From: Agelas oroides
Taxonomy: Eukaryota; Porifera; Demospongiae; Agelasida; Agelasidae
NCBI GenBank assembly: GCA_949130485.1
Contig: OX422192.1
Span: 4,162,085 to 4,226,084 of the forward strand
Direction of reading: 5' to 3'
Length of the DNA: 64,000 bases
Shown: piece after piece, positions 12,940 through 37,499 of the stretch
Layout of the letters: every line of letters begins with the position of its first letter
How positions within the stretch are numbered: position 1 is the first letter of the stretch
Made by a program: the position numbers and the translations under genes
Notes under the pieces: generated by a model
Seen by the model: only the letters and a program-made list of their open reading frames with translations
Databases searched by the model: none
What the model was told of the DNA's origin: nothing

Positions 12940-12975
12940 CCTTCTCAAGATTAGTCTTGTCAGCAGCTCAAATGC
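12940..12975 (-). CDS. Rab-like gene, exon 6
   Basis: The exon follows a TCTCCCATTTTAG acceptor and encodes AFELLTRLILRR, matching the last helix of Rab8/10-type proteins. It ends at a GTGAGT donor. It joins exon 5 in phase 0 across an intron of only 95 bp. The hypervariable C-terminus with prenylated cysteines must be in a further exon that I could not find between 9950 and 12939. Confidence 0.7.
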
Positions 12976-13070
12976 CTAAAATGGGAGAATGTAAATAGCA
13001 TATGCCTACTTCTAGGAGCTATCAGTAAGGTATAGTAGTAATGACATCACACGATAAGCTGACCTCTGAC

Positions 13071-13226
13071 CTTATCAATCTTGTGGTTGGTCGTAGCAGA
13101 GGTTTCCAAAAAAGGTATGCCCTGAGTATAGGCAAGTTGTTCCCCTCTCTCCTTTTCCACAAGCCTTGTTGCCTCCCAGTCATGGCGGTTGCCAATCAAC
13201 ATCAACTCCACATCTGGGGGGGCATG
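13071..13226 (-). CDS. Rab-like gene, exon 5 (G4 and G5 region)
   Basis: The 52 codons lie between a TTGCACTCCAG acceptor and a GTCAGA donor. The exon starts HAPPDVELMLIGN, which corresponds to the HAS.DVE..LGN segment at which Rab8/10 helix 3 runs into strand 5. The base-recognition motif reads NRHD instead of NKxD, and the G5 loop reads ETSAT instead of ETSAK. Both changes replace conserved lysines that contact guanine. The intron upstream is 17.8 kb and full of transposons, so linkage to exons 1-4 rests on phase, strand and order. Confidence 0.75.
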
Positions 13227-13499
13227 CTGGAGTGCAAGAAAAGAATGGAAGGAGGACAAAGTTGAGCAACAAATAAGCTGATGAAGTCTAAAAAAAGGAA
13301 AAGCACAATGTTACCAGCTGGAGGATATAACAGCAACTGGCTACACATGTATAAAATGAGAGGTTAATTTTACCCAAGGCAGGTTGCCTTTTTGCAGCTT
13401 GGCCTAAGCCTTGGCCCAACTTCGGTGCAAATCATTTAATATGTTGATTTTTGAACAAGGTTCAAGAACTTTATTAGCAAATAAACAGAAATTAATGTC

Positions 13500-13900
13500 A
13501 GGGTTGCAGTGGTGGATCTAGAATTCTGGTGGCGTAAGGTGCCGGGTGAAAGCCACATCCGGTGGGTGGAGCTATGGGCGTGACTATGTCATGATGACAT
13601 ATGAAGGGGATACACCCGGTTTGAAATGGTTACATCATCTCATTAAATATTCATAAGACATTTTAACGCTTCGCACTGGCTTTGCATGACTGTTGTACTT
13701 CGACCTTGACTGCTGACTTTTGCTTGCTTGGCAAGGCACACAGCCAATTGTTCTAGGAGCGCTTCCTAAGGTATTCAGTGGAGATTTACAAGTATAACAA
13801 TGCATCAGAACTCATAAGTTGACATAAAACTCAGCAGGAGTCCATTTGGGTTGCATAAATTAATAATGGCCTACCCTGGTACATGTACACATAGTACTGA
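13500..13900. other. Intron DNA with MITE-end scraps
   Basis: The part at 13508-13620 begins GCAGTGGTGGATCTAG, a type of end also seen in decayed form at 58400-58415. No complete element can be delimited. The rest is unannotated intron of the Rab-like gene. Confidence 0.3.
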
Positions 13901-14213
13901 AGTTCTTGAGGCCCTCCATCCTGTGACCAGACCCTTCCTCTCTTTGCGAAGGGTGTGGCAATGAGTAAAGGCAATAGCATAATTATTCCTATATAGCTAA
14001 GATTATGCCATCAATCCCATTAACCACTGACAACAAGTGTACTTGCATAGTGAGCGACTGATTATTGGTCGTGTCCAAACACTGCATGCAGTGCGCATGT
14101 TGGCTTACTCTATTCATGCACCTAGAGTGCATTCAATGGTACGTAAATATTGCCTGGTTACAACTAGCAATACATGAATACAGTCAGATCAAGAGTTCCT
14201 ACCTTCATATATA

Positions 14214-15022
14214 AAGTCACAAAAAGGTTTTCTGAATGAAAACAAGTGCATGTAGGGATGGAACCCTCAAAAACCAACCAAACTAGATGGGAATGACACC
14301 ACAACAATTTCACACCATCCCTACATCTTGTGCCATTTTGCCAACTATGCTTTGTGTTTGTTAGTTGTGTTCATAGGAGGGTTGTGGAAGGCAGTGGGAT
14401 GGGTAGTGCTGGGTGTGGAGTGCATGTTGATGTGCATGGGGGGTGAGTTATGTTGTGGGTGGCTGTGATGTAGTTGCTATGCTGAGAATGGCAGGTATGG
14501 TCTGTCTTGAATTAGTCTTGCAAGCCAGACCCTTTCTGCGCAGCACCGATCGCTTTCAGTATGCAGCACACAGAGGGAAGAAGTTTGATGTTTGGATTTA
14601 CAATTTCACTTCAAAGCATTTATGACGATTCTTAGTGCCTTCCTCTGCGTGCCGATACTGAAAGCGATCTGCACTGTGGAACGGAAAGGATCTGGCTTGT
14701 GAGACTAGTGTTGAATGCAGAAACTGTTGAGTGCATGAGCTGGGTCTGTTGGAGTAAGTTATGTTGTGAAATTTTATTGCTGCTGAACATGGCAGATATG
14801 GATTGTCTTTATGTAAAAGGCTGTGGAGTGAGCAGCGCTAACTACAGCTAGTATTCATTTAGTGGGTGTGAATAGACTAGAGAGTTTACTGGTGTGCATA
14901 GTTGGCAAGATGTAGGGATGGTGTGAAATTGTTGTGGTGTCATTCCCATCTAGTTTGGTTGGTTTTTGAGGGTTCCATCCCTACATGCACTTGTTTTCAT
15001 TCAGAAAACCTTTTTGTGACTT
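14214..15022. mobile_element. Composite inverted-repeat element with TGTAGGGATGG MITE arms
   Basis: The arms 14214-14353 and 14896-15022 are nearly identical inverted copies of about 125 bp, separated by about 540 bp. Each arm contains a complete 75-bp MITE bounded by TGTAGGGATGG and CCATCCCTACA (14252-14326 in the left arm). A related MITE is at 41691-41796. The shared sequence extends beyond the MITE, so the arms arose by inverted duplication of a larger segment. A second element lies between them. Confidence 0.7.
14504..14716. mobile_element. 195-bp TAG-family MITE with 9-bp duplication
   Basis: The element 14513-14707 begins TAGTCTTGCAAGCCAGACC and ends with the inverted partner GGATCTGGCTTGTGAGACTA; the arms pair over about 70 bp. 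The flanks are GTCTTGAAT and GTGTTGAAT, an 8-of-9 match interpreted as a 9-bp target duplication. A stray inner fragment appears inverted at about 15135-15197. Confidence 0.7.
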
Positions 15023-15880
15023 GTTCCTGCTCTTTTTTTTTTTGTATTGCTTTTTAGGAATGGTAAGAGAGAAGTGACATGGGAGGGTAGGCCGAGGGGA
15101 AGATGCATGGTGTGTACAGTATGATAGTAGAAAGAGCTAAGAATTGTCATAAATTCAAACGCTTTGAAGTGAAATCATCAATCCAAACATCAAACTTCGG
15201 GGGGTTTAGAAGTACAGTCCAAGCAAAGCCTCATAAAAACCAAGTGAAAAGCAGATGAGTTTAATAAGGCTTTGCATGTAAGCTTATAAATCCTGTGCTC
15301 ATTTAACGTGGACTACTAATGGGTTCACCGAAAAACTCTCCATAGACTGTCACCAGAGTATTGAGTCATAAGACCCCATTACAGAACTGTTTGATGGTGA
15401 GTAGCTATAGTCTAAATGGGTTTGAAACGAACGCATAGGGGTCTGTGGAGCTGAACAACTGCCAGTTCTGTGGCCACCTCTAGTGCAGAAGTTTGGAATG
15501 AAGCCATGCACTGTTGAGTCGGTGCTACTAGAGTTTGAGTATACCAAGCTACCAATAGGCTGCCACTTGCTTCGTTGGAGGAATATGAAGACTCAGGCAC
15601 AACACAAAAGGAGGATGTTAAGAAGACACCAGCCAAAGTGCTACCATCAACTCGCAGTAAACATTGTATGTGTACTATATGCATGTAAATGACTATAACA
15701 AGCAAATTTGAAATGTGAAGGTTGACAATAAAACTTGAAATTGAATATCAGTGGCTAGTGTTCTAAGTCATATGAAGTACTTGATGGTTAAAACACTAGC
15801 TGGCATAGTACCGTCTATACCACTTGAGCTTGGCTTTTGCAGCCTTCAAATTAGTCATACGAGCTGCTGCCCTTTTTTTT

Positions 15881-16200
15881 GTCAGGGTTCCTCCAATAAC
15901 TACTATGGGAGGATACGCGGGAAGCTGCCCTTCCTTTCTCAGGGTCCTCCCAATAGCGGGTATGGGAGGATACGCGGGAAGCTGCCCCTCCTTTCTCAGG
16001 GTCCTCCCAATAACGGGTATGGGAGGATGCCCTGGAAGATGCCCTATTGGTCTCAGGGTCCTCCCAATAACGGGTATGGGAGGACGCCCTTTTCGTCTCA
16101 GGGTCCTTCCAATAACAGGCATGGGAGGACGCCCGGGAAGATGCCCTGTGTTTCTCCGGGTCCTTCCAGTAATTATTACGGGACGCTTGCCTTTTTTTCC
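15881..16200. repeat. 57-bp minisatellite, about 5.5 units
   Basis: Units begin CTCAGGGTCCTCCCAATAAC and continue GGTATGGGAGGA. Most are 57 bp; one is 45 bp. Because 57 is divisible by three, four of the six frames stay open through all or most of the array (plus: 15751-16218 and 15824-16300; minus: 15851-16285 and 15796-16122). Their products are repetitive, for example GPPNNGYGR. No flanking exon signal singles out one frame, so I treat it as a noncoding minisatellite with a small chance of coding. Confidence 0.75.
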
Positions 16201-16300
16201 CCTTTGTTTCGCAGGTAGTTCTGCTTGTCCTGCGCTCGTTTCTTGCGGACATTACGCATATTGCGTTCGATGTAAAGTGCAGCACAACTACGTCAACTGA

Positions 16301-18405
16301 TCCACGAAATCAGATTTGCAAACTGCAACGCTCAATTCTCACCTTCTCTTCGAAGTACTGAACCACGTGCTCAGTTGAACCCTGGTGACGTAATTATGAG
16401 TAATATTTAATTCGAGCAAAATGGCGTGTAGCAGCTAGCGTAAGTGTGAGATTACCTGAGAATCGCCGACAAGTTTGAGTTCTTTCTTTTAGACCGATAA
16501 GTGGCAGGTGCAATACCTAGTGATTTATCCTGTTGTTTTGCGTTTGAATCGTTGTAAAAGCTCCAGCCGTTATCGTGTTATCGCGGTGAGAGGCAGAAGA
16601 AGAAGAAAGTCAGAAGATAGACGATTTGTCCGTTTTGGCGACTTGCCGGTCTGGTGCTTAGCGATACTTTCCAGCAAACTTAACAGTCTTTTTGCTCATG
16701 AAAACACTCGATAATGCCTGATATGGCTCATACAGGCCTTTGACTAATCTAACGAAGACATTTCGAGCGTGTTATTTGTGCACTTTTAATGTGGCGGCCA
16801 TTTTTTTTCGGGGTCATCCCTACATATGGCGTACTACCGTACGCCATGATGGTGCAAACATGCATTGATTTAATTTCATGTCACAAGAATGTCACACAGT
16901 CTAGAAAAGAGATCAACAACCCTGCAAAACATTGAAAAAGTAGGAAAGTTGGTAGAAACATATACATAGGAGAAGTCCTTTGATTGGTAAACAGGCAATT
17001 AACTAACTGGTCTTGCTGGCCATACCCTGTTTCTTGGATTATCTTGTATTGACTCTAATTAAATGTCTCACCAGTTGCATACAAAAACAGATGGGTGGGA
17101 TAACTTGAAACACTTCATGTTTGTACTGTCAAGCACTGAAGATTTTAAAGTGATGAGTACTACTTGCTACCTTATATCTAGTCTAGTTACCAATTGCAGA
17201 TTGAATGTCAATGACACTTTCCAGAAATCTAAATGGCATGCACATATTATTGCAAGTTGGCTAAGGAAGTTGTGATAATGTCACAAACATGAATACATCA
17301 AATTAAGCTAGGTGTTTTCTCTTAACAAATGCACTAGCATTCTGCTGGCTAACTTAGATATTTGCTATAAGATTGTGAGATCACTGTCTTTACATTCTTT
17401 TATTGTTAGAACATGCTGGATCTTGTAGAACGTGGAGGATATGAAGTGCATTATACATCCTGTTGAGTTTAGTCAAATAAAAGGCTACAATACTATACAA
17501 TGTCAACACTCAGTTCTATACCTCTTTACCACAGCCAATGATCAGCACTAGTAGTGTGAGAATCTGGCTCCACGAGACTAGATTATACGCGGTAGATGCC
17601 AATTGGCGTCATACAGACACATGTCATGAAACGCCAATTGGCATCACGGATATAGCTAAGCGTTATCACGGCCCAGGGCGAATAGCTATAAGTTTTGTAT
17701 CTGGTCTGTGATAAGCTTGGGGCTTTTCCTACTGCTATAAGTGGGTTGGTCCAGAAGCCCTCAAGGGACGGAGCATAGCGAGCGATAACAGCCCGGTATT
17801 TCCACTAACAACAGTATGTTAGCATCCGTATGCTATACAGCGATTTATATGGTTAGGGTTGGGTTAGGGCTAGTATAAATATAGTTTTCTTCTCAACACC
17901 AATAAGCAGAGGTACAGTGTCGCTTGGGGTTCATAATTATCTAGACAGATCTCGAACTGTGCCTTGTTAGTCAACGAGCAAAGCCAAGACAGTAAACACA
18001 ACACGCGGCAGGTAAGCGTCCTCCGTAAACCGGTTACATACAACATACCTAGGTTCTAAATAACCCTGGAAAGCCTTTTTCTGTTCCTTATTTCGCTCTG
18101 TAGAGCTTCATTTGCTTCCCTGATGCTTTAATCCTTGGAAAAAAGCATTTTAAAAGTTGACATCACGTGAAGTTAATCTATTTCCACGTTTGAGGTCAAT
18201 TGCATTCCATTTAATTGATCAATTTTTAGCAAACATTGACCAATTTTTTTTTGATGCTAAACATTGAGTGTCTACCTACTTAACAGCACAGAACTCTAGT
18301 AAACCCTTGTAGCTAAGTAGCAGTGAACTTTCTTTTGCTAAAGCCTACTACGTAACAAAGCTTTTACCTATCAGAGAGTCGGTAGACTCTCTGATTAGGG
18401 ATGGC
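16301..18405. other. Intron DNA, largely unassigned
   Basis: This is part of the 17.8-kb intron of the Rab-like gene. Isolated MITE ends occur at 16815 (CATCCCTACA) and 17573 (CACGAGACTA). A short GCCAATTGGC-type word occurs twice near 17597 and 17632. The GGTTAGGGTTGGGTTAGGG near 17850 is telomere-like but only a few units long. No exon is recognised. Confidence 0.4.
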
Positions 18406-18620
18406 GCCGACGCGCAATATATGCAATACTGAAGCAAAACCCGTATAACTTCACCACAAACACGCAAAAAGTTTATTTAAGCATCCAGGCTTCCTCTTAG
18501 AGTGGCTTTGTGATCAGCAAGACCCATATAGATGCCCAAAAGCCTCGCGGAAGACAGCTAAACGCAAAAGTGTGCGATAGCAAAAGTGCCATTTTTCGTA
18601 TTCTTCTTTCTTTCTTTTTT

Positions 18621-18656
<36 letters not shown>

Positions 18657-18676
18657 TCCTTCCTTCCTTCCTTCCT

Positions 18677-18720
<44 letters not shown>

Positions 18721-18744
18721 TCCTTCCTTCCTTCCTTCCTTCCT

Positions 18745-18780
<36 letters not shown>

Positions 18781-19012
18781 GTTACGACTTTTGTTCAAAC
18801 AACGATATCTCGCAAACTGTTTAAGTACTCACCGTCATTTTAGCACGAAACTGATGCTTATTACAGCACCCTGGTCAATAAAAGCAATTCACAACACTCT
18901 GAGGCTGCTGTCCGTTGCTTAGGACGCCATTTTATAATTTTGTACGCATGCGCACACGAAGTCTCGTTCCCAGACCAAAGACCACTGTCATTGGTCTGGA
19001 AGTGAGACTAGT
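18406..19012 (-). repeat. Dispersed 0.4-0.5 kb repeat with hairpin end, copy A
   Basis: Read on the minus strand, the segment starts with a hairpin (18962-19012, AGTCTCG ends). It continues GCGCATGCGTACAA, ATGGCGTCCTA, GCATCAGTTTCGTGCTAAAA, a GTGAGTACTT word, then GTCTTGCTGATCA. The same blocks run in the same order at 42263-42700 on the plus strand. The order of CpG-containing leader, ATG and GTGAGT resembles a captured promoter with first exon, but the frames are broken. A tetranucleotide array interrupts this copy. Confidence 0.65.
18599..18780. repeat. (TTTC)n/(TTCC)n microsatellite
   Basis: About 180 bp of TTTC with two blocks of TTCC (about 18658-18677 and 18720-18746). Open frames across it on both strands encode only FLSF or KERK repeats and are artefacts. 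The array sits inside the dispersed repeat and may have grown from a TTCTTTC seed. Confidence 0.95.
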
Positions 19013-19250
19013 ACACAGGCGAAATGGCCAGCGGGCAGTAGCATGGCTAGTACGGACCCCGCGGCACTGGGCAAGGCTTGTGAACACCACGTAGGTAAGG
19101 CGCTACCTACTTGTAGCTACACTAAAAATAGCCTACTCACCGCTTTAGTGAAGCTAGGATGGTCAGTTGTCAGTATGATAGTCTTCTGTGCTGCAGCTGG
19201 TCAGTCGTCATGACAACTGAATCATGAAATTGGTTTTTCATACGCAGTTC

Positions 19251-19297
19251 ACCAGACCCTTCCCTCTCTTGCGGAAGTGGGTCTGGCTTACGAGACT
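19251..19297. repeat. CCAGACCCTTCC..GGGTCTGGC hairpin repeat
   Basis: The inverted repeat CCAGACCCTTCC..AAGTGGGTCTGGCTTACGAG ends in the GAGACTA typical of the TAG MITE family. A close relative lies at 39274-39328 and a third, partial one at 13921-13955. No duplication is visible, so boundaries are approximate. Confidence 0.5.
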
Positions 19298-19400
19298 AAG
19301 CAGAGCACTGGTTGCAAAAGCCGGGTGGCCTGGGTTCGATTCTCAGCAACTGGTGGCCTTTTCACTTCCCTCTATTTCACCTCAAAAACATCAAATATCA
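19297..19400 (+). repeat. tRNA-derived SINE, family 2, copy 1 (5'-truncated)
   Basis: It contains GCAGAGCACTGG and the B-box-like GGGTTCGATTC, followed by the tail GGCCTTTTCACTTCC.TCTATTTC.CCTC. The same tail follows the tRNA-like body at 46600-46690. The A-box half is missing here and replaced by the hairpin repeat on its left. Confidence 0.65.
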
Positions 19401-19956
19401 GCTATCACATAGCCTATCTTCTGCATACAAGCCAAGTCAGTTACTTTACTCTGGGTACTCAAATCACTTCACTTTTCATTTCACCCTTCACAGTGGCCAG
19501 TGCATCTCTCTGTACAGCATTCCCAGTTAGAACGCACCTGTAAACATGCCAATTATGTAAACCGCAGCATAATATTTCAGCCCAACTTTGAGCCCGTGTA
19601 CCCGCTAACTGCCCGAGCGGAACCTTTTGATTTTTACATATTTTGTAGAGCTATCCATGGGCTATCCGTACATATATATATCGCCAGGGTTCGGGTAGTC
19701 AAAAAAAATGTACTAAAATATGCGGCAACATATCGCGAGTCTCGCCCCGCGACGAGGTCGCGAAAAGCGGCCACAACGCTGGAAGACATTCTCAAACCGG
19801 GATACAAAGTGGATTTGTGAACAGCAGAGAGGTGCCTCTACGCACACTGACCCAAGTCCGGTTCGTTTCTGCCATTGCTAGCTGGAGCTAGCTTGTAGAA
19901 AAGTCAGGAAGTATTCATTGCGTTAATTACACACTGGAATGTAGCTCTACGTGAAC
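19400..19956. other. Unassigned intron DNA
   Basis: No domain is recognised in the open frame at 19500-19820, whose C-terminal half is arginine-rich. The poly(T) run that begins at about 19958 marks the tail of the retrotransposon to the right. Confidence 0.35.
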
Positions 19957-22190
19957 TTTTTTTTTCTTTTTTTTTTTTTTTTATAATAGTTTATGCAAGG
20001 AGCAAGGGTTACATAAAATAGCAAGGCGTGCTAATACCAGTATGTAACCGTGCAGAAATATACTATGAGTGTGAAATAAAGGAAGGGGTATCTAACATGT
20101 AAACACACTAAGAGATGACTGAAAAGAGTGCAGAGTATGTGAAGAGGTTAATTCTATAGGGAGGCAATTCCATTTCCTGATGGTATCTGGTACAAAGGAG
20201 TGGGCAAATGCTGAGGTTCTGCAGAAAGGCTGGTGAAGCAGGGATGGTCTCAAGGAATATGGCACAGTAGATCTTTGGACCACGATCTCAGGGGGAAAAT
20301 AGCAGAGGTTGTTGACAATCTTGAACATATGACTCAGCTTCAAATAGAGACGCCGATTCTCGAGGGAGGGCACCTTACACACGTCCAATAGCTCAGAGTA
20401 TCCCAAGTTCCAGTTTTTGCAGCAAACCCGCAGTGCAAACTTCTGGATGTTCTCGAGAGAGCTAATATCTTTATACAAATGTGGGTCCCAAACTTGAGCC
20501 GCGTACTCTGTGTGGGGTCTGACAAGTGAGAGGTAAAGGTGGAGCAGGGTGGAAGGGTCAGAATGTTGGTAGTATCATCTGTACAGAAGACCAATGATTT
20601 TGCGAGCCTTGCTACAAACTTCCTGTATGTGAGGTGACCACTGCAAACTGGAGGACATAAGAACACCAAGGTACTTGAAAGTTGAGACAGTTTCAAGTGG
20701 AGAGCCATTGAGATGAAGAGGTGTAACGGGAAGACAATGAGTCCTTTTCCTTGAAATTAGCATGGACTTACATTTGGAGGTATTAAATGTCATCTTGTTT
20801 GTTGAAGCCCAGTTACTGATAGAGTCTATGTCCCTTTGGAGAAAGAGGTAGTCCTCGCTGGTACAAATAGGTCGGTAGAGCAGGATGTCATCTGCATAGA
20901 GTACCAAGGTGCTTCCTTGTGAGATGTTTGCTTTGACAATATCATCGATGTAGATCAGAAAGAGGATTGGACCAAGAATTGACCCTTGAGGGACACCAGA
21001 TGTCACAGGAGAGGTTTCTGACGATACTCCATTCAGCACTACCTTCTGTTGTCGACCAGCCAGGTAATTGTGAAGCCATACATACACATTGTGGGCTAGG
21101 TTGAGTACTTTGAGTTTAGAGAGCAAGGGCTCGTGGGGAATGGAGTCAAATGCCTTGCGGAAGTCGAAAAACACAGCTCCTACCTCATGGTTTCTCTCCA
21201 TGTGTTGGAACCAGTCATGTGTCACGTGCAGAAGTGCAGAGACAGTTGACTTTCCCTTCTGGAATCCCCACTGGCAATTAGCTAGAGGGCTGTGTTCGGA
21301 TAGATGGCTGTTAATGTAAAACACAAGATGGCGTTCCAGAACTTGCTTAGGATGGGGAGTAGGGAGATTGGGCGGAAGTCAGATGTATTTCTAGCCCTTG
21401 ACACTTTGGGGATGGGCACTATTGCAGATTTTTTCCAGTTTGAAGGGGGCTTGCCACATGCAATGGAGTGGTTAAAAAGTTTGGTGATTGATGGGGCGAT
21501 GGAATATGCGGTGGACTTAAGCATGCGAGCAGAGATGCCATCTAATCCATTTGCTTTGGATGTGTCCAGAGACTGTAGCATGGTGCGTATTTCCTCTTCT
21601 GTACATAGAATGTCAGATGGGCATTCATTATTTACGTCAGGGGTGGTGGTGGTGACTGGAGGTGATGATCCATTGAAGCAACTAGTAAAATAGTCATTCA
21701 ATGCGTTTGCTTTTTGTTCATCTGTTGCACATGAGTTTCCATTGTGGTTCAGAGTACCGACAGATGTGTCCCGACCGTCAAGGGCCTTAATGGACTTCCA
21801 GAAACACTTTGGATTAGATAAGTTTAAATTGTTGAAGAATTTCTTTTTTGCTTGCCGGAGTTGGGATGTTACTCTGTTTCGAATATGCTTGTATTGCATC
21901 CATATCCTTGGTGAGTTGGTATTTTTAGCTCTTTTGAATGCTGCATTTTTCCTTCGAATGCACTGGGATATGGACTTGTTGATCCATGGTCGGTTACGGC
22001 GTTTGGGTGGAAGAACTTTTGTTGGGATGCATTGTTCCATAATTGACATGTACATGTCCTGCCATTGTGTAGAGTGTTGGTCAATATCTTCACAATACAG
22101 TGAGTCCCAATCTGTTTGTGAAATCAAATGGTTGGCTTTTGAAAAATCTGCATGAGCATATCGCCATACGGTTCATTCCTGTATCTGAAT
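19957..22190 (-). mobile_element. 5'-truncated non-LTR retrotransposon (CR1/Jockey-like)
   Basis: Minus-strand frames encode a reverse transcriptase: the DFRPIS fingers motif near 21370, the FRKAFDSIPH motif, GVPQGSILGP, and the YADD catalytic box near 20900, then the thumb and a C-terminal region typical of CR1/Jockey-type LINEs. A T-rich tract at 19958-19983 is the poly(A) tail read in reverse. The endonuclease domain is absent: homology stops near 22185, as expected for 5' truncation. The frame is broken by a one-base shift near 21340 and an in-frame TGA near 20576, so the copy is dead. I found no target duplication. The insertion lies in the large intron of the Rab-like gene, same strand. 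Confidence 0.9.
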
Positions 22191-24407: not shown

Positions 24408-24667
24408 TTAAGGTGGCACGGTACCCTGTATTTTCAAGGTCAACAAACCTGGAATCCAAGTTGATAGTCTTCTTTGTCTTGTTAAAATTTTAGCGCACAG
24501 TCCGTTTTGGGAGTCTCAAACCGTTCACGGTCCGTAAAATTGGGGATTTTCCCCATTTCCTGTCGGCATTGCCATCCAATAATCAGTTTATAATTAAGTT
24601 AGTTAAGATGTGGCCTGGCGGCACCCTTCATGTGGTGCTCGGAACTTTGAAGATAAGCTTAGATCGA

Positions 24668-24705
<38 letters not shown>

Positions 24706-25435
24706 GGAGTTTAGTAGAGTGCTGTAGTGTCAGTAGCTGTGAGTAGTGCGTGATGCCTGCTTGTGAAAGCAAGCTTGTGTCTAGAAGCAGCAGAAAGGCC
24801 ACAGTGGCCAAGACTGTATTTGTTGAGTAGGCCCAGGTCTCGCGGCCGTATGCCTAGTCTAGTTGGTGACCGTGGCCAGGTGCTTCGAGTGCTGGGCTGG
24901 GCTTTAACTAGAATACGCAATTTATCGTTTGTGCTACAGTCTGACAGACAAGGGAGCTGAACGGTGGCTGTGTGTGGAACAGAGCCGTGAGTTGTTTAGC
25001 GACATAAGGGGGAGAGGTGGGGCTAGTAATGCTTGCTTCCACTCGTGAATGAGCCCCTCCCGTAGACAAGCTGTGAATTTTTCGAAATGTGCATTCATTT
25101 TGGTGCAGTCAAAGTTGTCCATTCCAAGAGTAGTGACAAACATGAGTCTAGCCTGACTTTGAGAGTAGCTTTGAACAAAAGCTGGCATAGATTGATTTGA
25201 GATACATTGGTGGTTGGGACGCTACCTACAGTGAGTGTGTAGATGCGTCCATCGAGTGGCAATTTTGGGTTCATGAATATATTAATGAGCTACTAAAACC
25301 CTTTTTAAAATTAGGCAAAGCAAGATTGCCCTAAACCAAACCCTAACCCTGAAACTAGGAGTAACCCTGGTCCTGACTGTAACCCAAGTTTATGTTTTCG
25401 TTAACCTCCGCCGAGGGACGACCGTGCCACCTTAA
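24408..25435. mobile_element. piggyBac-like non-autonomous element, copy 2
   Basis: The element 24412-25431 has TTAA on both sides (24408-24411, 25432-25435) and inverted ends GGTGGCACGGT. Its interior matches copy 1 throughout. A pure A run occupies about 24671-24700. The minus-strand frame beginning MPAFVQSYSQSQ (24934-25188) matches copy 1 in its first 60-odd residues with almost no replacements, which is more conserved than the surrounding DNA appears. Confidence 0.85.
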
Positions 25436-25467
25436 GTTCTTCCCTACTATTTATTTAGCATCTTGGG

Positions 25468-25514: not shown

Positions 25515-25625
25515 TCATTGTGGTGACGTTCTATTACGTCAAATAAAATCGGGCATGTGCACATCCTTGTAGTGTGATTAATGTAAAGTATACGGATATT
25601 TGCGGAGTATTTTAATACAATCCTG

Positions 25626-27785: not shown

Positions 27786-28068
27786 ATGAAAGCATACAAA
27801 GTTGGCAAAACCAGTTCCCCTCCGGCCAGTTCTGATGTCAAATTTTATACACATAACCTGAAGTGGAGAATAAGTCCATTTTTAACAGTAAGGGGGCTGT
27901 TTACAAACTAGTTTTCCAAAAATAACATTCTGACCCTTTAAACCCTATAGTGCACTTTTGGTTACATCATACTGCGCACTGCCCAGAAACAATAGTCTCT
28001 GCACGCTTCCGCGCGGGTTCTGCGTCAGCAAAAAGGTGGGACAGAGGAGGTGGGTGGTGTCACCCTCA

Positions 28069-28309
28069 GGGTGACATGCAATGGTGGCTGCTAGGCTTGG
28101 CTGCAAAAGCGCCATGGTTGGGACCAGGTGGGCTACTTCTTGCCCTGGCTGCATGGACAGGCTTAGAAAACACTACTCTCACCTTGTAGGGTGACATGCA
28201 CATGGTGGCTGCTAGGCTTTGCTGCAAAAGCGCCATGGTTGGGACCGGGTGGGCCAATTCTTGCCCTGGCTGCATGGACAGGCTTAGAAAACGCTACTCT
28301 CACCTTGTA
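28069..28309. repeat. Two tandem 120-bp units
   Basis: Both units run from GGGTGACATGCA through TGGTGGCTGCTAGGCTT and GCATGGACAGGCTTAGAAAAC to CTCACCTTGTA, with about 95 percent identity by eye. This is a recent duplication. Frames through it are open on both strands over a short distance but have no known domain. Confidence 0.85.
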
Positions 28310-30987
28310 GGGGGTTCATTTCTGGCAGGGAAGGCTGCTTAGGCTCTGAGAGGGTGTTTGACAACCGAGAGTGCTGACCATTTCATGCTCGTTAATGAGT
28401 GGGCATGGTTAAGTTCACGAGTCTGCTTGCTAAGGCTGGAAATGGACTTGGGTTCAGTTTAGGAGTAAGAGCTTGGACAGAAATGGAGATATGGTGCGTT
28501 AAAGGCATGCATAGCCTAAAACTAGTCTCAACTGAAAAAAATTCAGGGTTTAAAGGGCTAAGGGTGAGGGGGATAGACTGTGTGACATTATAATATAAAG
28601 CATGTTACATGCAAGCAATTACACCATAGGGCATGCTTGTTAGGAGGGAACCTAAAAGCAAGATTCTTTGAGAGAGTATTAATTCGTTTTGCAACTACTA
28701 GGGAAAGTAATAGGGCAGTGGAAAGTGGAGCTAGTAACAGAAAATGTCTCCAAGTCCAACCTCACATTTTGAGTTTGTGATATCACAGCTGTTACCCAGT
28801 CTTGTCAACTTATGAGCCAATTTGGACACTCAGTCATTAGGCCAGTGGTCCAGAAAGCAAGAACAGGAAGAAACTTCATTTCAACATGATCTTGAACAGG
28901 CCATTTACCTTCTGCCTCAGCTCTCTCCAGCCATAGCCAATTGATACACCTGTTTCTATGCAATGGTACCTTTGCTTCACAAAACCCCACCTTTGTTTTG
29001 TGTCAGCATATGAGCAGCTTTTGTGGATGTTGTTTTGTTATGCTTGTATGTGTTGCAACATAGCTTGAGAAAAACTGCAAAGAAGATAGAAAAATGGGCC
29101 TGTTCCAGCATGAAGTTTTTGCACTATGTGAGTGACAAACAAGCCCCAAAAATTCACAATTGTGTCGCTTGACAGACTGTTGCATTGGCATATTGATGAA
29201 TGGACACAGTAGCACATCAGCAGGTTGACCGAACTGCTGCTAAGCTGCATGTAGCTGGTTCTGTGTTACAGATGGCAGAAAACAACATGGACAAAGATGA
29301 AGAAATTTCTAGTAGCATTGAGGCATCTGAGGAGGAAGAGGTATGGAATACATTCCATAAAGAGGAGGCACAGAACAACAGATGCAGAAAATCAGGAAGT
29401 CTACTACTACTGAAAAGAGCATATTTATAATGTGGTGCAGCAGTACACACAAGTAGTACAGTGTTGGAGTTAAACATGATTGTCTAACTCGCTGTATAAC
29501 CTGCTGGTGTGCTACTGTGTCTGTGATTCAATATGCCAGTGTTGTCTGACTCCCTTATTGTATTGAGCCAGTAGGTAGTATAGTGATGTAATGTAACACC
29601 CTTAGCAACCAGTATTTCGGGCCAAAGACTGTGATACAGATAGATATGTCTCAATCAAAATTAGACACACTGCGGTATATACTAGCTGAATAGTCATCAA
29701 TGGACTCATGTGATACAAGAGGCTCGCAGTCCAGTGCACTTGAACAAATTGCAGCAGCAAAAATGCAGTCCAGGAACGACACTACATTTACGTTGCATGC
29801 ATAGAATGCTTATTTACCGTTTAAGTTTACATTTTTGATTGAATGATTTCTGTAGTTTCAAAGAAGAAAGAAATAACGATCATTTACAATATGACTGATT
29901 GGAACCATAATGATATAGGCAATTTGCCAGACTATGTTTACTGCTTTAGTCCAGTAGTGCAGGCAGGTGCCTGGGTATGAGGCGAATGTATCTGAAGGAG
30001 TCTGTTAAAACACTGCTACCTGAGCAAGTGTGTTTATATGCTAATGTGATCTCAATGTATTGGAGATGGGCAATACAAACAATACCAGTATTAGCCCCAA
30101 GGAAAATCGAAATCTTAGGTGTATTTTGTTGCAAAAGGTCAAAGAATGTTCCTCATCTTCACTTGTGACACCAGTCTTTCACTTCTTACCTTGTGGACGA
30201 AAACTACTGTGCTGCCCACTGGTTCAGTTGTGTGTTCCTCTTAATGTATACTAGAATAGGTTATGTGGAACACTGTACTATATGCTGAGGTTGTCAATCC
30301 ATCCAAGACACTGTAGGGAAATGCTACAGTAAAACCCAGCTATAAGTACACATACCTGTTCAGTGTCAGTTAAATTGTTGCCTAGTTCCATTACCCACTA
30401 AGTTCTACTCTCTAGAAGTCTAGAAGTCCCTACAAGGGTAGAGTAGCAGTTTCTTTGCTTGTTTGGGCTTAAAAGTAGAGAAATATCCCATCCAGTGCTA
30501 ACCAACGCCTTTCTACAACTAGGGAAGAAAGCCACCATGCATGTGCAAAGTACCCCCTGCCTAAACCCACCCCCACCTTTCCCTATTCCACCTTTTTGCT
30601 AGAATAAACTTATCTTTATAACATGCGGCTAAAGTCGGATTACAGGAAACAGGAAGTATCAGGCCGCCCTTCCATTCAGGCACCAGAGGATACTACCACT
30701 CCACTGTACTTCATAACTGGAGTAGCAAACAGTTAGTGTTGGAGCAACGTGCCTACAAAGGTCATCGGCCGAATACAGCAGCATGGTGGCTTATTCTATA
30801 TTCATGTTGCTTGGAAGTCACCATTAATTATAGAGAAATGGGATATAAGTTAACCTTACATGAGTCTGAGGCCAAGCTGCACCTGAGAAAGCGGGTTAAT
30901 TTAATCTCAGATTTCTTCCTTGTGCACCTATAGCTAGCTACCCCTACCTACTCAAAGTTGCACCTACTCAAAGTTACACACACTCAC
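28310..30987. other. Large-intron DNA without recognised features
   Basis: I checked both strands for exons with splice signals and for repeats seen elsewhere. Several open frames of 60-86 codons exist (for example an acidic 76-codon frame at 29200-29430), but none has a recognisable domain. Confidence 0.4.
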
Positions 30988-31065
30988 ATCCCTAATGTCC
31001 TGCAGTCGTTTTGTGATGTTTTCAAATGACATCAGACTTGTGATGTCATACACCAGCACGATACC
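30988..31065 (-). CDS. Rab-like gene, exon 4
   Basis: The 26 codons encode GIVLVYDITSLMSFENITKR and a short helix, matching the strand-4 to helix-3 segment of Rab8/10 (GIMLVYDITNEKSFDNI). The exon lies between a CCTTCCCAG acceptor and a GTGAGT donor, in phase 0 at both sides. This part is well conserved and is the clearest Rab signature in the gene. Confidence 0.85.
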
Positions 31066-31178
31066 CTGGGAAGGGAGGAGTACATTCACAAGACAATGTG
31101 GTTAGTTGACACACATGTACAATCTGACCATCCCATGCAATATTATGACATCTCTCCTCATAATGTTGTATAGCTTAC

Positions 31179-31239
31179 CATGGCACCACGATAGTATGAG
31201 GTAGTGATGGTGTGGAATCTTTCTTGTGCATGTGTGTAC
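31179..31239 (-). CDS. Rab-like gene, exon 3 (switch II)
   Basis: The exon supplies the last base of a Trp codon, then YTHAQERFHTITTSYYRGAM. The family sequence is WDTAGQERFRTITT.YYRGAM. The length is unchanged, so the G3 motif DTAGQ has become YTHAQ: the Mg-coordinating Asp and the invariant Gly are lost, while the downstream ERF..ITTSYYRGAM is intact. The acceptor is preceded by a very long pyrimidine tract; the donor is GTAAGC. Confidence 0.85.
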
Positions 31240-31430
31240 CTGGAGAGGAGAAGAGGAAGGGAGATAGGAAGGGAAGGAGGGAAGAGAGAGAGAAGCAAGA
31301 AGGAGAGGAAGTTAGGGAGGAGGAGAGAGAGAGAGGAGGGAAGCAGGGAAGAAGAAAGGAAGAAACAGCAAGAAGGGGGGAGTGGGGGATACAGTAAGAA
31401 GGAAGGGAAGAAAAGGGGCAGGTTGCTACT
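31240..31430. repeat. 190-bp polypurine/polypyrimidine tract
   Basis: The plus strand is almost purely purine (GGAAGG, GAGAGA, AAGAAGG words), so the minus strand of intron 2 is almost purely pyrimidine right up to the exon 3 acceptor. Open frames through it give only Glu/Arg/Lys repeats and are not genes. Confidence 0.85.
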
Positions 31431-31713
31431 AGGCCTTCAGCGAACGCTTTTGCAGCATTTGGATGTGGTAATTTACTAAGAGTGCCATTTTGATAACTTC
31501 TTAAATCTAGCCAACAGCAGTTGCTGATATCATTCAATAGTGATAACTAGGTAAACAATGAATCACATATCTTCTTCAGGATCTCATTATTCTACCATTT
31601 GGAAGTAAAATTCTATTGAAAACACTGGGAAGGAGGGAGGAAGGGCAGTGGAGGTGCAGAGAATGTTGCATTGCCATGTATGCAAAAAAGATAAAAATAG
31701 CTTACTGACATAC

Positions 31714-31774
31714 CAGACTTGCAGCTGGATTCGTTTGCCTTCAATCTCAACTGTTCTCATTACAAAATCAACAC
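31714..31774 (-). CDS. Rab-like gene, exon 2
   Basis: After a TTCATCATTCAG acceptor the exon completes a Gly codon and encodes VDFVMRTVEIEGKRIQLQV plus two bases of Trp. This matches [20 protein letters not shown] of Rab8/10, strands 2 and 3. The donor is GTATGT. The phases fit exon 1 (one base left) and exon 3 (one base supplied). Confidence 0.85.
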
Positions 31775-31810
31775 CTGAATGATGAAAAGAGGAGTGACAA
31801 AGAGTGCAGT

Positions 31811-32414
31811 ACCGTAGTGTCCCGCAAATACGCCCCCCCCCCCCCCCCCCCCCCCCCTCGCGCATAAGCCCCCCCTGCATTTTTAGCGCAAGGTCTTGCA
31901 GAGCTAATTTTATCCCGCGCATAAGCCCCCCAACCATATATGGCTGTTACCAAAATTTATTGACAACTAAGTGTGGCAGTCCTGTGTAGAAATCGAAGGT
32001 TATTCAGTCGCATATTTCGATCGCATCGCTGTGTTCCGGGTGAAGCGCCGTATCGCTGAACTTCCGTTAAGGGCGGGGCTCATGTGCGCTTCATAGATAT
32101 TCAATTATTCATGCATCTACGAAGCACGTATGAGCCTAGCCTCGTACCCAGGCCACGTGGCCTGGGTACGAGGCTAGTATGAGCCCCGCCCTCAGTCAGC
32201 ATCGATTTCTCTATAGCATGGGACTGCCACATGTATACACAACATCCTTCCAGACTGTAAGTCGTCAAATGCGTCATGAAGTTGTGGGCGGGGCACCGGA
32301 AGGGAGGGCGTAATCGCGAGAGAAAATGTCGCATCCCGCGTATAAGCCCCCCCTGCGCTTTGCACTAAGGCTAAGGTTGCAAAAGGGGGGAGCGTAATTG
32401 CGGGATACTACGGT
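31811..32414. mobile_element. 604-bp MITE with ACCGTAGTRTCCCGCAA ends
   Basis: Left end ACCGTAGTGTCCCGCAAATACG and right end inverted ACCGTAGTATCCCGCAATTACG are each followed by C runs and GCGCATAAGCCCCCC-type words. The run of C at about 31830-31858 is one of the longest in the window. It sits in intron 1 of the Rab-like gene and has itself been invaded by a 40-bp palindromic element at 32137. Confidence 0.75.
32128..32185. mobile_element. 40-bp perfect-palindrome mini-MITE with 9-bp duplication
   Basis: Positions 32137-32176 are a perfect palindrome of 2 x 20 bp, starting TAGCCTCGTACCCAGGCCAC. It is flanked exactly by GTATGAGCC on both sides (32128-32136 and 32177-32185). The element therefore consists of nothing but its two inverted ends and still carries a clean target duplication. 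It is nested inside the 604-bp MITE. Confidence 0.85.
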
Positions 32415-33695
32415 TATAGCAGTCAACCAGTCCATCCAAGCCTGACATTAGCAACCCCAATTTGAAAGTGGGAGGGCCTAAGTTCCCTATATCTCCCCCT
32501 GCCACTGCTGCAGGCGTACTAATTAGACCACAAGTGAATAAGTTAATGAGTCGGGAGCTTTGATGTCCACCAGGGTGGGAAGTGCTTTATTTGCGCAGTC
32601 AATTCACTGTAAGGTTTCCCAGGTATGTAACTGCAACTTAGACTCCCTTGGTTGGGTAGTCTACAATCACTGGACTGGACTGGTGGACTGGACTAAAAAT
32701 CATTTTCTGTCTAATGTGAAGTCACCTGTATGTAGGGTTACATTTGGAACTTTCTTTCACAGACTCTAGCAAGAATATTAACTAGATGACATGAAGCATG
32801 CACACTCAATCCTATAAAGCCTACTCGGCAAGCCTTAAGGCATCTACCATCAGCACACCAGATGTCACCTGGAATGAGTCTTACTGGTTACTTAATTATA
32901 CTTGTGGATTGATGATGCTTGCAGATTGGGTACTGTAGTGAAGCTTAACAAGCGTGCGTACAAGCCATTTGTCCAACTGCAAGTGTCATATGTAGCTAGT
33001 GACTAGAGTCTTTACTAATAACTTGTACTCAGACGGTTGTCTCTACCATAAGGCCAGGCAAACTAGATATTGTTTCACATCAGTGCCCGCTTCCTGAGAC
33101 CTGCCACCTCAACTGTCATTATCGCCTTCCAAGCAGACACGCCCACTTTTATGGCCATAGCAACGTAGATTTGCTGAGTGTATAGCCTTCAGTAGTAATG
33201 AATAATGAATAATGACCACCCACCCACATGCAAATCGAGTAAGTGGCTGATGCGAAACAATAAATCTAGTTCGCCTGGCCTAACATGGAAGGAGTTCCCA
33301 GGCTCCAAAAAACTGGGACCTGGGTGTGAGCCTGATCCATTTCACACCATGCTGCACACTATAAGCACAATGTAAAGCAAGGCCTCACCACTGTTGTAGT
33401 CTACACAGAGAGAATTGTGTGTCCAGATTTATATGCTAAACTACAGGAGAGTGAGGTCTAATAAGAGAGCACAAAAGTGATTTTTAGCACAAAAAATGTC
33501 AGTCCACCACTCTAAGAAGACATTATGTTGTTTTGACCCAAAATTTGTTATTTTAGTTGGATCAGTGAACAGTTGAAATGTGCAGAGATACTTCTGTGAG
33601 TTGGTTAAGAATTCCTGTATTCCCATAGAGCATTGTAGCTTTTGGGGGGGGGGGGGGGGGCAAATACATACGTAAGTGGTATCATCTGTAAACTA

Positions 33696-34060
33696 GTGAG
33701 ACGATTCATGCATCATCGTGGGGCGAGCCTGAGCGAGCAATGCATTGCTGGTTCGTCATGGCACACAAACTATGCACTGTTAGTAACAGCAGGAATCATC
33801 ATTGCATGCATGTCTGCTGTTCCATGAGCGTGGTGAGCAAAACTCCATGTAGCCAAGCAGCATCTGTATCTGGTGAGAACTATAGTCAGGATAACTACTA
33901 CAGCTACACAAACGCTTGGACTAAACTTCACACTGAAGTCATGAGCTGAATCTCTGGCACTTATGAGTGTTGATTATGCATGGCCAACTGAGTTACCTGA
34001 ACGTGTCCAGCCCGGCTGCTGTCGGTGAAGGGCTACTGCCCATGCTCTGGGATTTTGCAT
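33696..34060. repeat. Dispersed repeat (GGGGCGAGCCTGAGC family), copy B
   Basis: Matches 10149-10560 block by block: GTGGGGCGAGCCTGAGCGAGC, TCATGGCACACAAAC, TGGACTAAACTTCACACTGA, GTCATGAGCTGAAT. It lacks coding potential. It lies at the centre of the 2.8-kb inverted-repeat structure. Confidence 0.6.
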
Positions 34061-34482
34061 TCACTAAACATCCGTGCCTTGGGAGTTTGGAAGATGTTAC
34101 TAAGTGACATTTGTCACTAACTCACAGTAGCTAGCATCTTGTTCACATGCACAACTGAAATAGTATCCTTTGGGTCATTTACTGTGAACAGCCCTGGACT
34201 CAGTGTGAAGTTCGACAATGTGCACACTCCATAAAGAAAAAAAGAAAGCTGATTCAGACTCTCCACCAACCAATTTAAAATTATACAAAAACAAAGATGT
34301 TTACTAATGCAAAATCCCCAGAGTATGGACTACAAATATTCATTTACAGATGATACCACATATGTAATTGTCTCCCAAATGCTACAATGCTCTAGGGAAT
34401 ACAGGCATTCTTAACCAACTCCCAGAAGTATCGCTGCACATTTCAACCGTTCATTGATGCAACTAAAAGAACAAAATTTTTG

Positions 34483-35266
34483 GTCGTAACTAGGCCTTGA
34501 TGGATTATGCATTTTGAGAATAATAGGTAACAAAAAGAATTTGAGAATAATAGGTAAAACAATAATAGGTCCTAGTTTTGTAGGCTATAGCACCTAACAG
34601 CAATTGGCGTTGAGTCTAGGCATACATGTAGCCTCGTCCACAGGCATCATTTGGCAGCTGCCGCCAATGAAACATTGAAGCCTGGGAATGAGGCTAGTGC
34701 ACATGCGCATTTCCACTCCAATCTTGTCTCTTTGTTGCCTCCTTAATAGGAGAGTACACCTGAAAGGTGGGGTGTTCACGGTTGGTTGATGAGAATTTCG
34801 GATCTTTTCTGTTTAAGGTCAGAGATGAACTTAATGAAGAACGTTTGGGCCTCCAGGTCGTCGATCCACTCAACTCCTAGGATTATTTCCGTAAACGCTG
34901 ATGGATCACGCGCCGGATCAGGTAGGTTGAGCGGGGCGTGGCTGAGCAGGGATTGACGCTCCGCCTGCAAGGCGTTGCAGGCAGCTCCAATCACGTGTAG
35001 TAATGTAGTAGGCATTATTTAAAATGAGTATTTGTACAGTTTTTGTTATTGAGTGGGGCTATCTATATAACAAGACTCTATTTGGTGCACGATGTATTGT
35101 ATTTAGACTGGGAATAACAGGCGTGATGAAAAGAATATTAGGTAGCATGAGAAGCAATAGGTAAGTTCAGGTAGTATGAGAAGAATAATTATAGGTAAGA
35201 ATTTTGAGAATACAAGAATAGAATAATAGGGTAAAAAAAAAAAATCCATCAAGGCCTAGTCGTAAC
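34483..35266. mobile_element. 768-bp hAT-like non-autonomous transposon, 8-bp duplication
   Basis: The element 34491-35258 has identical 16-bp inverted ends, TAGGCCTTGATGGATT, and a perfect 8-bp duplication GTCGTAAC on both sides. An 8-bp duplication is the rule for the hAT superfamily. Inside, GAATAATAGGTA words recur near both ends, and a TAG-family MITE lies at 34631-34698. A 79-codon minus frame at 34776-35015 shows no known domain; there is no transposase. It cleanly interrupts the right arm of the older 2.8-kb structure. Confidence 0.85.
34631..34698. mobile_element. 68-bp TAG-family MITE
   Basis: Begins TAGCCTCGTCCACAGGC and ends GCCTGGGAATGAGGCTA with a short inner stem TGGCAGCTGCCG. 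The flanks (GCATACATG, GTGCACATG) match at 6 of 9 positions, so any duplication has decayed. It sits inside the hAT-like element. Confidence 0.65.
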
Positions 35267-35490
35267 AACATAATCTCTTCTTAGAGTGTACATTGCAGTC
35301 CAGTCCACCAGTCCAGTCCACTAGTCCAGTCCACTATAGTCCAGTCCAGTGATTGTAAACTACCCCTCGGTTGTCTAACTGCAGCTTAGATCTTTCCATA
35401 ACTGAGTATACGAATAATACAGTAACTACAGTACAATGTCGGTAAATCAACATTGCAATTGAAGCTGAATGTTGACAAAATTTACACACT

Positions 35491-35811
35491 AAGGGGGCGT
35501 CTCCAACTATTTTTGGTGCAGATAATGTCACTCCCCCTCCCCATAACGTCACACAATAAAATAAGTTCAAAACCAACATGAAAGGATAACTACAATACAT
35601 GAAGCCGTGGCCTTTTTGAAACATCACAGAGTTAAAATCCAAGTCAGCTGATTATCTTTCGGATTTTTGTAAATGCAGACCTCCTCCTCACGTACAACAG
35701 TGCGAAGCACGTGGCATAAATTAACGTCACGGCCTCCCCCCCCCCCCCCCCTCCCAACGTCACAATGATGTTATCTGCGCCAAAAATGGTTTGGAGACGC
35801 CCCCTAAGCTA
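35491..35811. mobile_element. 320-bp MITE with AGGGGGCGTCTCCAA ends
   Basis: The left end reads AGGGGGCGTCTCCAACTATT and the inverted right end AGGGGGCGTCTCCAAACCAT. Both continue TTTTTGGYGCAGATAAYRTCA and include a CCTCCC/CGTCAC segment with a C run near 35740. No duplication is obvious. Confidence 0.75.
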
Positions 35812-37235
35812 CATGCATAGAAACAGCTTGTTCAAAGAAGCAAAAGTAATATCTGTTCACAACTGCCAGTATACACAAGCCCACGCGGTAGCAGGTAGCA
35901 GAGATAACTTTTGCTACAGCATGAGCGATAAGCCAGTTGTTTAGTATAGGCGCTGTAGCTAGTAAAATTCACTTCGCAATATCCTAAAGTATACCGGTAC
36001 CGGCGTTTGTATTTGTTTTTACAACAACATAAGGCACAGCCTAACAAAAAGGGCATCATTTTGTAGCTCTTTTAACGCTCTATCTTTTGATACTAGTTTC
36101 ATTAAAATGTATTGGAGGTTGCTATCAGGAGTTATCGTCCTTATAGTTCAATTTTCATTACCGGTTCTCTAGACACAGCGTCTGTAGCGATGGTTGCGTA
36201 AGACAAGGCACAGCCTACAGGTTGAATAGCTGCATCCTAGCATGCATGAATTGATGACTTACCTCCGAGCTTCCTGAATGCAGGACGATGCGCGAGACCA
36301 ACAAAAGCAGGCTGCGTGCTCACAAAACAGACTTTTGTGCCAGCCTCATGACTGCGTGTCATGTCGCGTACCCCCGTAGCAGCGTGTTCCTCGCTCAGAC
36401 TCGCCCCACGATGGTGAAGCAGCTATGACGCTCACTAGCCGCTGCTCCAGCCATACGCTATTGCTGACTCACTACGCACAGTCCACTACCGGTTAGACGG
36501 TGTTACAATGGCTATTTAAACTGCTCGACAGTGCTTCAAAGGTGACTCAGCACTTTTTGGGCGGTAGAATGCACAAAATAATATTAGTACAAAATTTAAT
36601 TAGTGCACGGTCAAGTAACTATACGCCCTCGCGCTCGACCCTTGGTCTGGGTTACTAACCTATATATTTAGCAGTATGGAATTTGAAGTTTAGATTTTCA
36701 CTTGCAAAATCATTCACACATTTTTCTATTCTAGCTAAACACTATAACACGTGACCGACACAATCTGTCCCTTTGAAGGTGACAGACTGCCTCAAATGAG
36801 ACAGGTATAGACACTTCTGACTATGAGTGTGCTTCACAGCCTGTAGCAGAAAAGGATCCTGTTATCTCCCACATTGTATACACACAATATGCTATAGTCC
36901 ATATCAATTGTTGAATTGGGACAAATTTGGCTGCAAATGTTCTCACCAAACGATTTCTCAACAGCTGAAAGTTAGTTAAGAACACTACTCAACAGTCCAC
37001 CTATCAGTTTCAGAAAGAGAGCTTAAGTGTACTCATAATATGTTTCCCAACCCTTACCCTAACCCACAACCCGCCTTCCTAATGGTATATAATGCCTACA
37101 GCATTGCAAGCTGTCTGGTAAGTACCGCAAGTGCAGTTCTTTTTTAGGGGCTGTTCTTTGTTCTTGATCCGCGGATCCCTCGGTAAATGGTAGGCTTGGA
37201 TGTCGAGATGATTGCTGTAATAAGTTATTTTTTTA
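35812..37235. other. Intron 1 DNA of the Rab-like gene, unassigned
   Basis: Contains one inverted GCTCAGACTCGCCCCACGAT fragment of the GGGGCGAGC repeat family near 36398. Otherwise I see no exon, RNA gene or delimited element. Confidence 0.35.
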
Positions 37236-37363
37236 TTAACTGTCCATATATATACGGGTCAGTTGTCCGTGATTCCGCGACAGATAACAAACCGCTACCC
37301 TACTGAATGTTATTTCCTTTCTTTTAAAGCATATTAAATTGCAACACACTAACCCCAGCTCAC

Positions 37364-37499
37364 CTACAACACTGGATGTACTGTCGACGTATGTGGACAG
37401 TATGCTGGCCTTGCGTACATTTGAGTCTCCGATCAGTAGTATCTTGAAGAGCAGGTCATACTCTTCCGCAGCAACAACAGACGCCCCCAAAGTAGACAT
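37364..37499 (-). CDS. Rab-like GTPase gene (degenerate), first exon
   Basis: The ATG at 37499 starts MSTLGASVVAAEEYDLLFKI, continuing LLIGDSNVRKASIL: the Rab P-loop region, in which GDSGVGKS/T has become GDSNVRKA. The conserved Gly before Lys and the Mg-binding Ser/Thr are lost. Switch I is about five residues shorter than in Rab8/10, and the conserved Thr before IG is replaced (SVVG). The exon ends with one base of a Gly codon at a GTGAGC donor. With exons at 31714, 31179, 30988, 13071 and 12940 it gives 176 codons with every junction in phase. Rab proteins are prenylated vesicle-traffic switches; this one probably cannot bind or hydrolyse GTP normally. Intact splicing against decayed motifs favours a pseudo-GTPase, but a young pseudogene is possible. 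Confidence 0.8.

Follow-up and report, generated by a model that had tools for sequence, protein, structure and literature searches.

Results

The window analyzed here, a 64,000-nucleotide (nt) stretch of the genome of the sponge Agelas oroides (assembly GCA_949130485.1, contig OX422192.1, positions 4,162,085 to 4,226,084), carries on its minus strand a spliced Rab10-like gene whose nucleotide-binding motifs are degenerate. We call this copy W and its contig C10, and used its canonical paralogue, gene A on contig C24, as the reference. The six exons that an earlier note on this DNA had placed on the minus strand were reproduced at the same coordinates: joined in phase, they give 528 nt, or 176 codons with no stop, with GT..AG at all five introns and another GT donor directly after exon 6. 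Exon 1 (37364..37499) contains the ATG, a P-loop reading GDSNVRKA and a GT donor, and resembles exon 1 of gene A. Exon 2 (31714..31774), flanked by AG and GT, is 61 nt long, as in paralogues A, B, C, D, E and F. Exon 3 (31179..31239; 61 nt) encodes YTHAQ and then the unchanged stretch ERFHTITTSYYRGAM, and is followed by exon 4 (30988..31065; 78 nt). Exon 5 (13071..13226), which carries NRHD and SAT, is 156 nt long in W, A, B, C, D and E and 147 nt in F, while in a Rab8-like gene of the same genome a donor follows nucleotide 90 of the corresponding exon. Exon 6 (12940..12975; 36 nt) is followed by a GTGAGT donor in phase 0. The 17.8-kb length of intron 4 is partly explained by an inserted reverse transcriptase element, whose frame (20578..21378, minus strand; RVT_1, 1.9e-32) we label long interspersed nuclear element (LINE)-type.

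The Rab8/10/13-like assignment made in the note also held, as the W chain matched Pfam Ras at 5.5e-44 (150 bits) and, among solved structures, Rab10 best (186 bits) and Rab8A next (173 bits). A Rab8/10-type core and the canonical gene's exon pattern (61/61/78/156/36 nt for exons 2-6, common to W and A) are both present, as expected of a Rab family member of the Rab10/Rab8 group. The similarity, and the exon pattern shared with gene A, exclude a chance open frame. From its sequence, W is thus confirmed as a real, intact spliced Rab10-like gene with degenerate nucleotide-binding motifs.

We compared the nucleotide-binding motifs of W, which read GDSNVRKA (P-loop), SSVVG (a short switch I), YTHAQ, NRHD and SAT, with those of intact Rabs. 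The G1-G5 motifs of W are not intact, as 7 of 14 key residues are lost. The earlier note had called all motifs degenerate; each motif is altered as it said, but per residue the claim was overstated, since W retains the other 7 key residues, among them the P-loop Lys, the DTAGQ Gln and the NKxD Asn and Asp. An atypical Rab might bind GTP or GDP weakly or in an altered manner through these kept residues. We consider this very unlikely for W, given the P-loop Gly-to-Arg and Thr-to-Ala changes, the lost switch-I Thr and the DxxG Asp-to-Tyr change, which, from general knowledge of the Ras fold, presumably remove the phosphate and magnesium contacts. The Rab part of W would therefore have lost nucleotide binding.

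To place W among its relatives, we searched the whole 259-Mb genome with the W chain and built gene models by splice-site reading, picking exon ends by similarity and splice signals. This yielded seven Rab10-like genes, the canonical gene A and six duplicates: A, B and C lie on C24, D on C9, E on C1, F on C12 and W on C10. Gene A has GDSGVGKT, DTAGQ, NKCD and SAK, and its tail exon ends in Cys-Cys. The 61, 61, 78, 156, 36 exon pattern recurs in the paralogues, with the second 61-nt exon shortened to 52 nt in E, the 78- and 156-nt exons changed to 81 and 147 nt in F, and the 36-nt exon not located in C. None of the seven genes has a stop inside its assembled exons. Key residues kept, out of 14, number 14 in A, 13 in B, 12 in C and E, 11 in D, and 7 in F and W. 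Gene E has GG for AG at its exon 5 acceptor and lacks three codons of switch II, its frame being otherwise open, while F is a second intact pseudo-Rab chain. W is 68% identical to A across 175 aligned codons and groups with F in the Rab tree (support 76). Their key-residue strings, GRKAVYAQNRDSAT for W and GGRKTDNQNMNS-- for F, show that the losses in these two copies, the most eroded of the set, overlap only in part. Rab10 itself is described as a metazoan duplicate of Rab8 (PMC3425129); the presence of a Rab10-like gene is consistent with animal DNA.

Two further observations concern Rab copies in this genome. A cluster of Rab-like frames, several with an internal stop, lies at C23:782787-803684. 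Interspersed repeats at window positions 18369-19236 and 41678-42714 recur beside copies C, D and F, and could have helped the copying of Rab genes.

We determined how selection has acted on W by splitting the alignment into 34 codons in the five G-motifs and 159 codons of core, and estimating the ratio of replacement to silent substitution rates (dN/dS) for each class. On the W branch, the core gave 0.40, with a ratio of 1 rejected (twice the log-likelihood difference, 2dlnL, 6.52), while the motif columns gave 1.34, not different from 1 (2dlnL 0.59). The heterogeneity between motifs and core had a 2dlnL of 12.1, and of 10.1-12.1 across three trees with an alignment lacking F exon 1. For F, the core ratio was also 0.40 (below 1, 2dlnL 9.67) and the motif ratio 0.64 (not different from 1, 2dlnL 1.5). 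For A with Rab8, the two column classes gave 0.07 and 0.015.

The stretch ERFHTITTSYYRGAM in exon 3, part of switch II and lying directly after the broken DTAGQ, was unchanged at the protein level. Six of its 15 codons differ between W and A, and all six differences are silent (P about 1.5e-4 under equal freedom of silent and replacing changes). In the other copies, the same stretch contains replacements (B, C, D and F) or a three-codon deletion (E). In 2000 neutral simulations starting from A, run to the silent divergence (dS) of the W branch, 0.34, chains acquired about 5.5 stops on average and only 0.25% had none, P(none)=0.0025. As W has no stops and its core is constrained, a simple pseudogene was set aside as the leading explanation. 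The note's view that the pattern is not one of simple decay is thus borne out: W is probably not the product of such decay, and the results support release of its nucleotide-binding surface from constraint while the rest was kept. In terms of the pseudoGTPase criterion of maintenance by selection, the core ratio of W lies below 1 and its switch II has changed only silently.

A recent pseudogene in early decay was also considered. If W lost its function only lately, its open frame could be a remnant of earlier selection, as suggested by whole-gene W-branch ratios of 0.53-0.55 on two trees, where 1 was not rejected (2dlnL 3.24), and by the GG acceptor of duplicate E and the reverse transcriptase frame within intron 4 of W. 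Two other results also tell against selective upkeep, as the motif-versus-core difference was not significant in F (2dlnL 1.83) and a crude tally comparing changed residues between the motifs and the core of W gave a Fisher p of 0.17. On a third, clearly lower-likelihood tree, the whole-gene ratio was 0.37 and 1 was rejected (2dlnL 16.75). Thus the comparison with the canonical paralogue that the note had proposed gave a split answer, with the core below 1 but the whole gene not distinguishable from 1 on two of three trees. Early decay is nonetheless at odds with the missing stops, the intact state of every W splice site, the core constraint and the silent-only switch-II stretch, and we judge it improbable.

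As the W chain stops at a phase-0 donor, its 176 codons are most likely incomplete, and we asked what follows. A tail exon with Cys-Cys is present in A and E, and a changed version in B. No tail exon like these was found downstream of W (12.9 kb searched), D (16.3 kb), F (8.8 kb) or C (5.2 kb). The best scores in the window, 35 and 28 (shuffled sequences reached 28), both fell inside a frame with ankyrin repeats, and scores for the D, F and C stretches were at chance level. An unrelated tail with prenylation cysteines is possible for W. On the same strand, downstream of W, lies a 1761-codon open frame encoding ankyrin repeats and a Roc-like GTPase. This frame contains an acceptor at 9872/9871 whose phase, 0, matches that of the exon 6 donor 3.07 kb away; DNA similarity to relatives starts about 12 to 22 nt inside it. 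The likeliest next exon is therefore a proposed exon 7 (4676..9871, minus strand) of 1731 codons and a stop, encoding ankyrin repeats (Ank_2, 18 stretches) and the Roc-like GTPase (GNPETGKST, DLAGQ). The proposed intron between the Rab and ankyrin-Roc parts (9872..12939, minus strand) would span 3,068 nt, and no canonical tail exon was found inside it.

To examine whether this arrangement recurs, we searched the genome with the Roc part, which gave 84 matches (59 places after clustering within 20 kb). The close ankyrin-Roc subfamily comprises 13 matches at at least 74% identity and one further piece, on C10, C17, C9, C12 and C7. With C24 taken as a single locus, three of the five Rab10-type loci have a subfamily member downstream of them on their own strand: W, D (17.9 kb from its partner's ankyrin exon, C9 positions 3954895 to 3937041) and F (33.2 kb, C12 positions 2853274 to 2820100). 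With W given, random placement would link at least two of the other four loci with P=6e-6. Among 127 Rab-type matches in the genome, 25 belong to the five Rab10-type loci; the remaining 102, from about 70 loci, all lie more than 60 kb away from every one of the 84 Roc matches, whatever the orientation. On C24, one Rab10-type gene is separated by slightly more than 60 kb from a distant Roc match, which is on the opposite strand. Thus, the linkage of Rab10-type copies with the ankyrin-Roc subfamily is real.

The 5' ends of the ankyrin exons were compared next. By eye, the acceptor is alike at C10, C9, C12 and one C17 copy, and it is in phase 0 at C10, C9 and C12; at C9 and C12, the stop that closes the frame upstream is the TAG of the acceptor itself. 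The first in-frame Met is codon 489 in the window exon and codon 391 in the C9 exon, so an upstream coding exon is needed, unless ATGs near the window acceptor are used. From the missing tails, the agreeing phases and the missing start codons, we infer that exon 6 may be spliced to the ankyrin exon. W would then not be the free-standing pseudo-Rab of the earlier note but, given the phase-0 donor and acceptor and the missing tail, probably the N-terminal part of an ankyrin-Roc protein.

The main rival is that a pseudo-Rab and an ankyrin-Roc gene were copied together, as neighbors, to C10, C9 and C12 and are transcribed separately, the pseudo-Rab being free, non-prenylated and equipped with a 3' exon we did not recognize. 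Linkage alone does not prove splicing. The 5' ends of five subfamily copies were fetched, four on C17 and one on C7; two of the C17 copies (L063 and L066) have a start codon heading the ankyrin exon, in one case after an in-frame stop, and neither of two queries gave a Rab match close to the C17 or C7 copies. Separate genes would leave unexplained why W, D and F have no detected tail exon whereas A and E have one, why no in-frame Met comes early in the ankyrin exons of the window and C9, and why phases agree at all three loci. We regard this rival as rather unlikely, though less so than early decay.

Several observations weigh against a joined transcript. In-frame ATGs sit just upstream of the window acceptor and codon 4 of the C12 ankyrin exon is an in-frame Met, which could allow these ankyrin-Roc genes to start on their own. 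The distances from D and F to their ankyrin exons are long, the C9 gap, which was read fully, holds same-strand open frames of up to 212 codons, and about 23 kb of the C12 gap went unread. Four same-strand frames of the C9 gap (108-212 codons) were scanned and had no Pfam match. In the Roc tree, C10, C9 and C12 do not come together (all supports are 28-47, apart from those of identical copies and one C17 pair), and the Rab tree barely tolerates a clade of W, D and F: the P value of the approximately unbiased test (p-AU) was 0.063, and 0.13 before F exon 1 was added. With the Roc tree lacking resolution and the Rab tree at this value, dating the fusion by trees was abandoned. Relatives in other species, sought in genome contigs and viral contigs, were not confirmed.

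The ankyrin-Roc part is itself constrained. On the window branch of the Roc tree, dN/dS was 0.318 and 1 was rejected (2dlnL 49.6); dS was 0.27, near the 0.34 of the Rab branch. The P-loop GNPETGKST and DLAGQ are invariant in all six aligned subfamily members. We call this part Roc-like, and not a proven Roco protein, because its match to the LRRK2 Roc is weak (4e-4 with a single sequence, 0.034 with a profile), it scored 23.6 bits against Pfam Roc, below the cut-off of 27, family and profile searches of the window protein gave no COR domain match, and the predicted structure (predicted local distance difference test, pLDDT, 37) was too poor to use. No kinase match was found in the window protein either. 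One candidate relative, C14:8470269, was rejected as only distantly similar; it is a leucine-rich repeat (LRR)-Roc protein that looks to us like LRRK1. As for the family at large, the 84 Roc matches show that ankyrin-Roc or related Roc genes have expanded greatly in this genome. On C12, three equal-scoring ankyrin-Roc genes about 39.4 kb apart (C12:2736310, 2775738 and 2815187) represent a recent tandem triplication, and the Roc parts of the two that were compared are identical.

Elsewhere in the window, the plus strand carries an element we label Gypsy-like (60527-63472), with aspartyl protease and reverse transcriptase frames, and two Rfam tRNA matches (44722-44794 and 46593-46664). ARAGORN calls one of the two tRNA-Ser, and the weaker may be a tRNA-derived repeat. 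One interspersed element is present in three copies, two direct and one inverted (2249-3258, 24408-25435 and 63701-64000), which are 83-98% alike over the matched pieces.

Discussion

A model that we favor, and hold to be reasonably probable, is that W forms the front of a Rab10-ankyrin-Roc fusion whose Rab part is a nucleotide-independent binding module. A Rab10-like gene would have been duplicated, and loss of the copy's tail exon would have removed the prenylation Cys-Cys as well. Its phase-0 exon 6 donor would be spliced into the first coding exon of a neighboring ankyrin-Roc gene. The predicted product, of about 1,907 residues, would consist of a pseudo-Rab10, ankyrin repeats and a Roc-like GTPase, and would have no prenyl anchor. 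If the Rab part works independently of GTP, its P-loop, switch I, DxxG, NKxD and SAK would be free to change, while the core and the switch-II helix would stay under selection. The Rab part would most likely serve as a fixed surface through which the protein docks to, or senses, a partner able to recognize Rab10, with nucleotide switching, if any, left to the Roc domain. Fused and locked, it could replace, mimic or block a Rab partner of the LRRK2 type. The pseudo-Rab idea of the earlier note is partly right, and the fusion would be the larger finding.

A different use of the same architecture is suggested by a proposal that Roco proteins are immune receptors in brown algae (PMC11378527). The expanded family of ankyrin-Roc and related proteins might act as receptors, with a copy of Rab10, a hub of membrane traffic, fused in front in three of them as an integrated bait; GTP binding would be lost in the window and C12 copies, while the switch-II surface that partners or hostile factors use to grip Rab10 would be unchanged in the window copy. 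We consider this doubtful. If correct, it would be a natural cis fusion of protein kinds that meet in trans in the LRRK2-Rab10 pathway.

Few known pseudoGTPases are recent enough to show the nucleotide site being released from a chain that is otherwise kept. In this genome, the canonical relative occurs together with several duplicates at different stages, and the C10 and C12 copies are eroded at partly different residues. In the open-licence literature, which leaves most subscription journals outside its coverage, we found neither a Rab fused to an ankyrin-Roc protein nor a sponge pseudo-Rab.

PseudoGTPases, some of which bind no nucleotide, are an accepted group (PMC5593906). Like W, which we assign by sequence alone, class i members (p190RhoGAP pG1/pG2, CENP-M and fungal dynein LIC) have a Ras-like fold with eroded G-motifs, and the p190RhoGAP domains are embedded in a large multidomain protein, as proposed here. 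Unlike W, a duplicate still close to gene A, class i members are described there as evolutionarily conserved, and not as Rab10-derived. EhRabX3 and EhRabX10 of Entamoeba are Rab proteins that likewise have several non-conserved G-motifs and are named pseudoRab (PMC8514894). They belong to another lineage, an ankyrin-Roc part is not mentioned in the account consulted, and EhRabX3 is described as a functionally active hydrolase. Rab44 and Rab45 join a Rab and an extra domain (EF hands) in one chain (PMC3425129), as the proposed fusion would; in these proteins the extra motifs are N-terminal, whereas here the Rab part precedes the ankyrin-Roc part.

Among the Roco proteins compared (LRRK2/LRRK1, DAPK1 and others), LRRK1 and LRRK2 resemble the proposed fusion in having ankyrin repeats ahead of Roc, and the N-terminal repeats of LRRK2 are reported to bind Rab29 and phosphorylated Rab8 and Rab10 (PMC10669493, PMC6337361). 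Rab10 is among the Rabs that LRRK2 phosphorylates on their switch-II Thr, and a role for Rabs in bringing LRRK2 to membranes has been proposed (PMC10669493, PMC6337361). Searches of the window protein gave neither a kinase nor a COR match. In the LRRK2 system the Rab is a separate protein, whereas in the window it would be fused in cis. If the fusion is true, a Rab10-like domain and an ankyrin-Roc protein, the two kinds of protein brought together in the LRRK2-Rab10 pathway, would share one chain, and it could be tested directly whether the repeats belong with the Rab surface.

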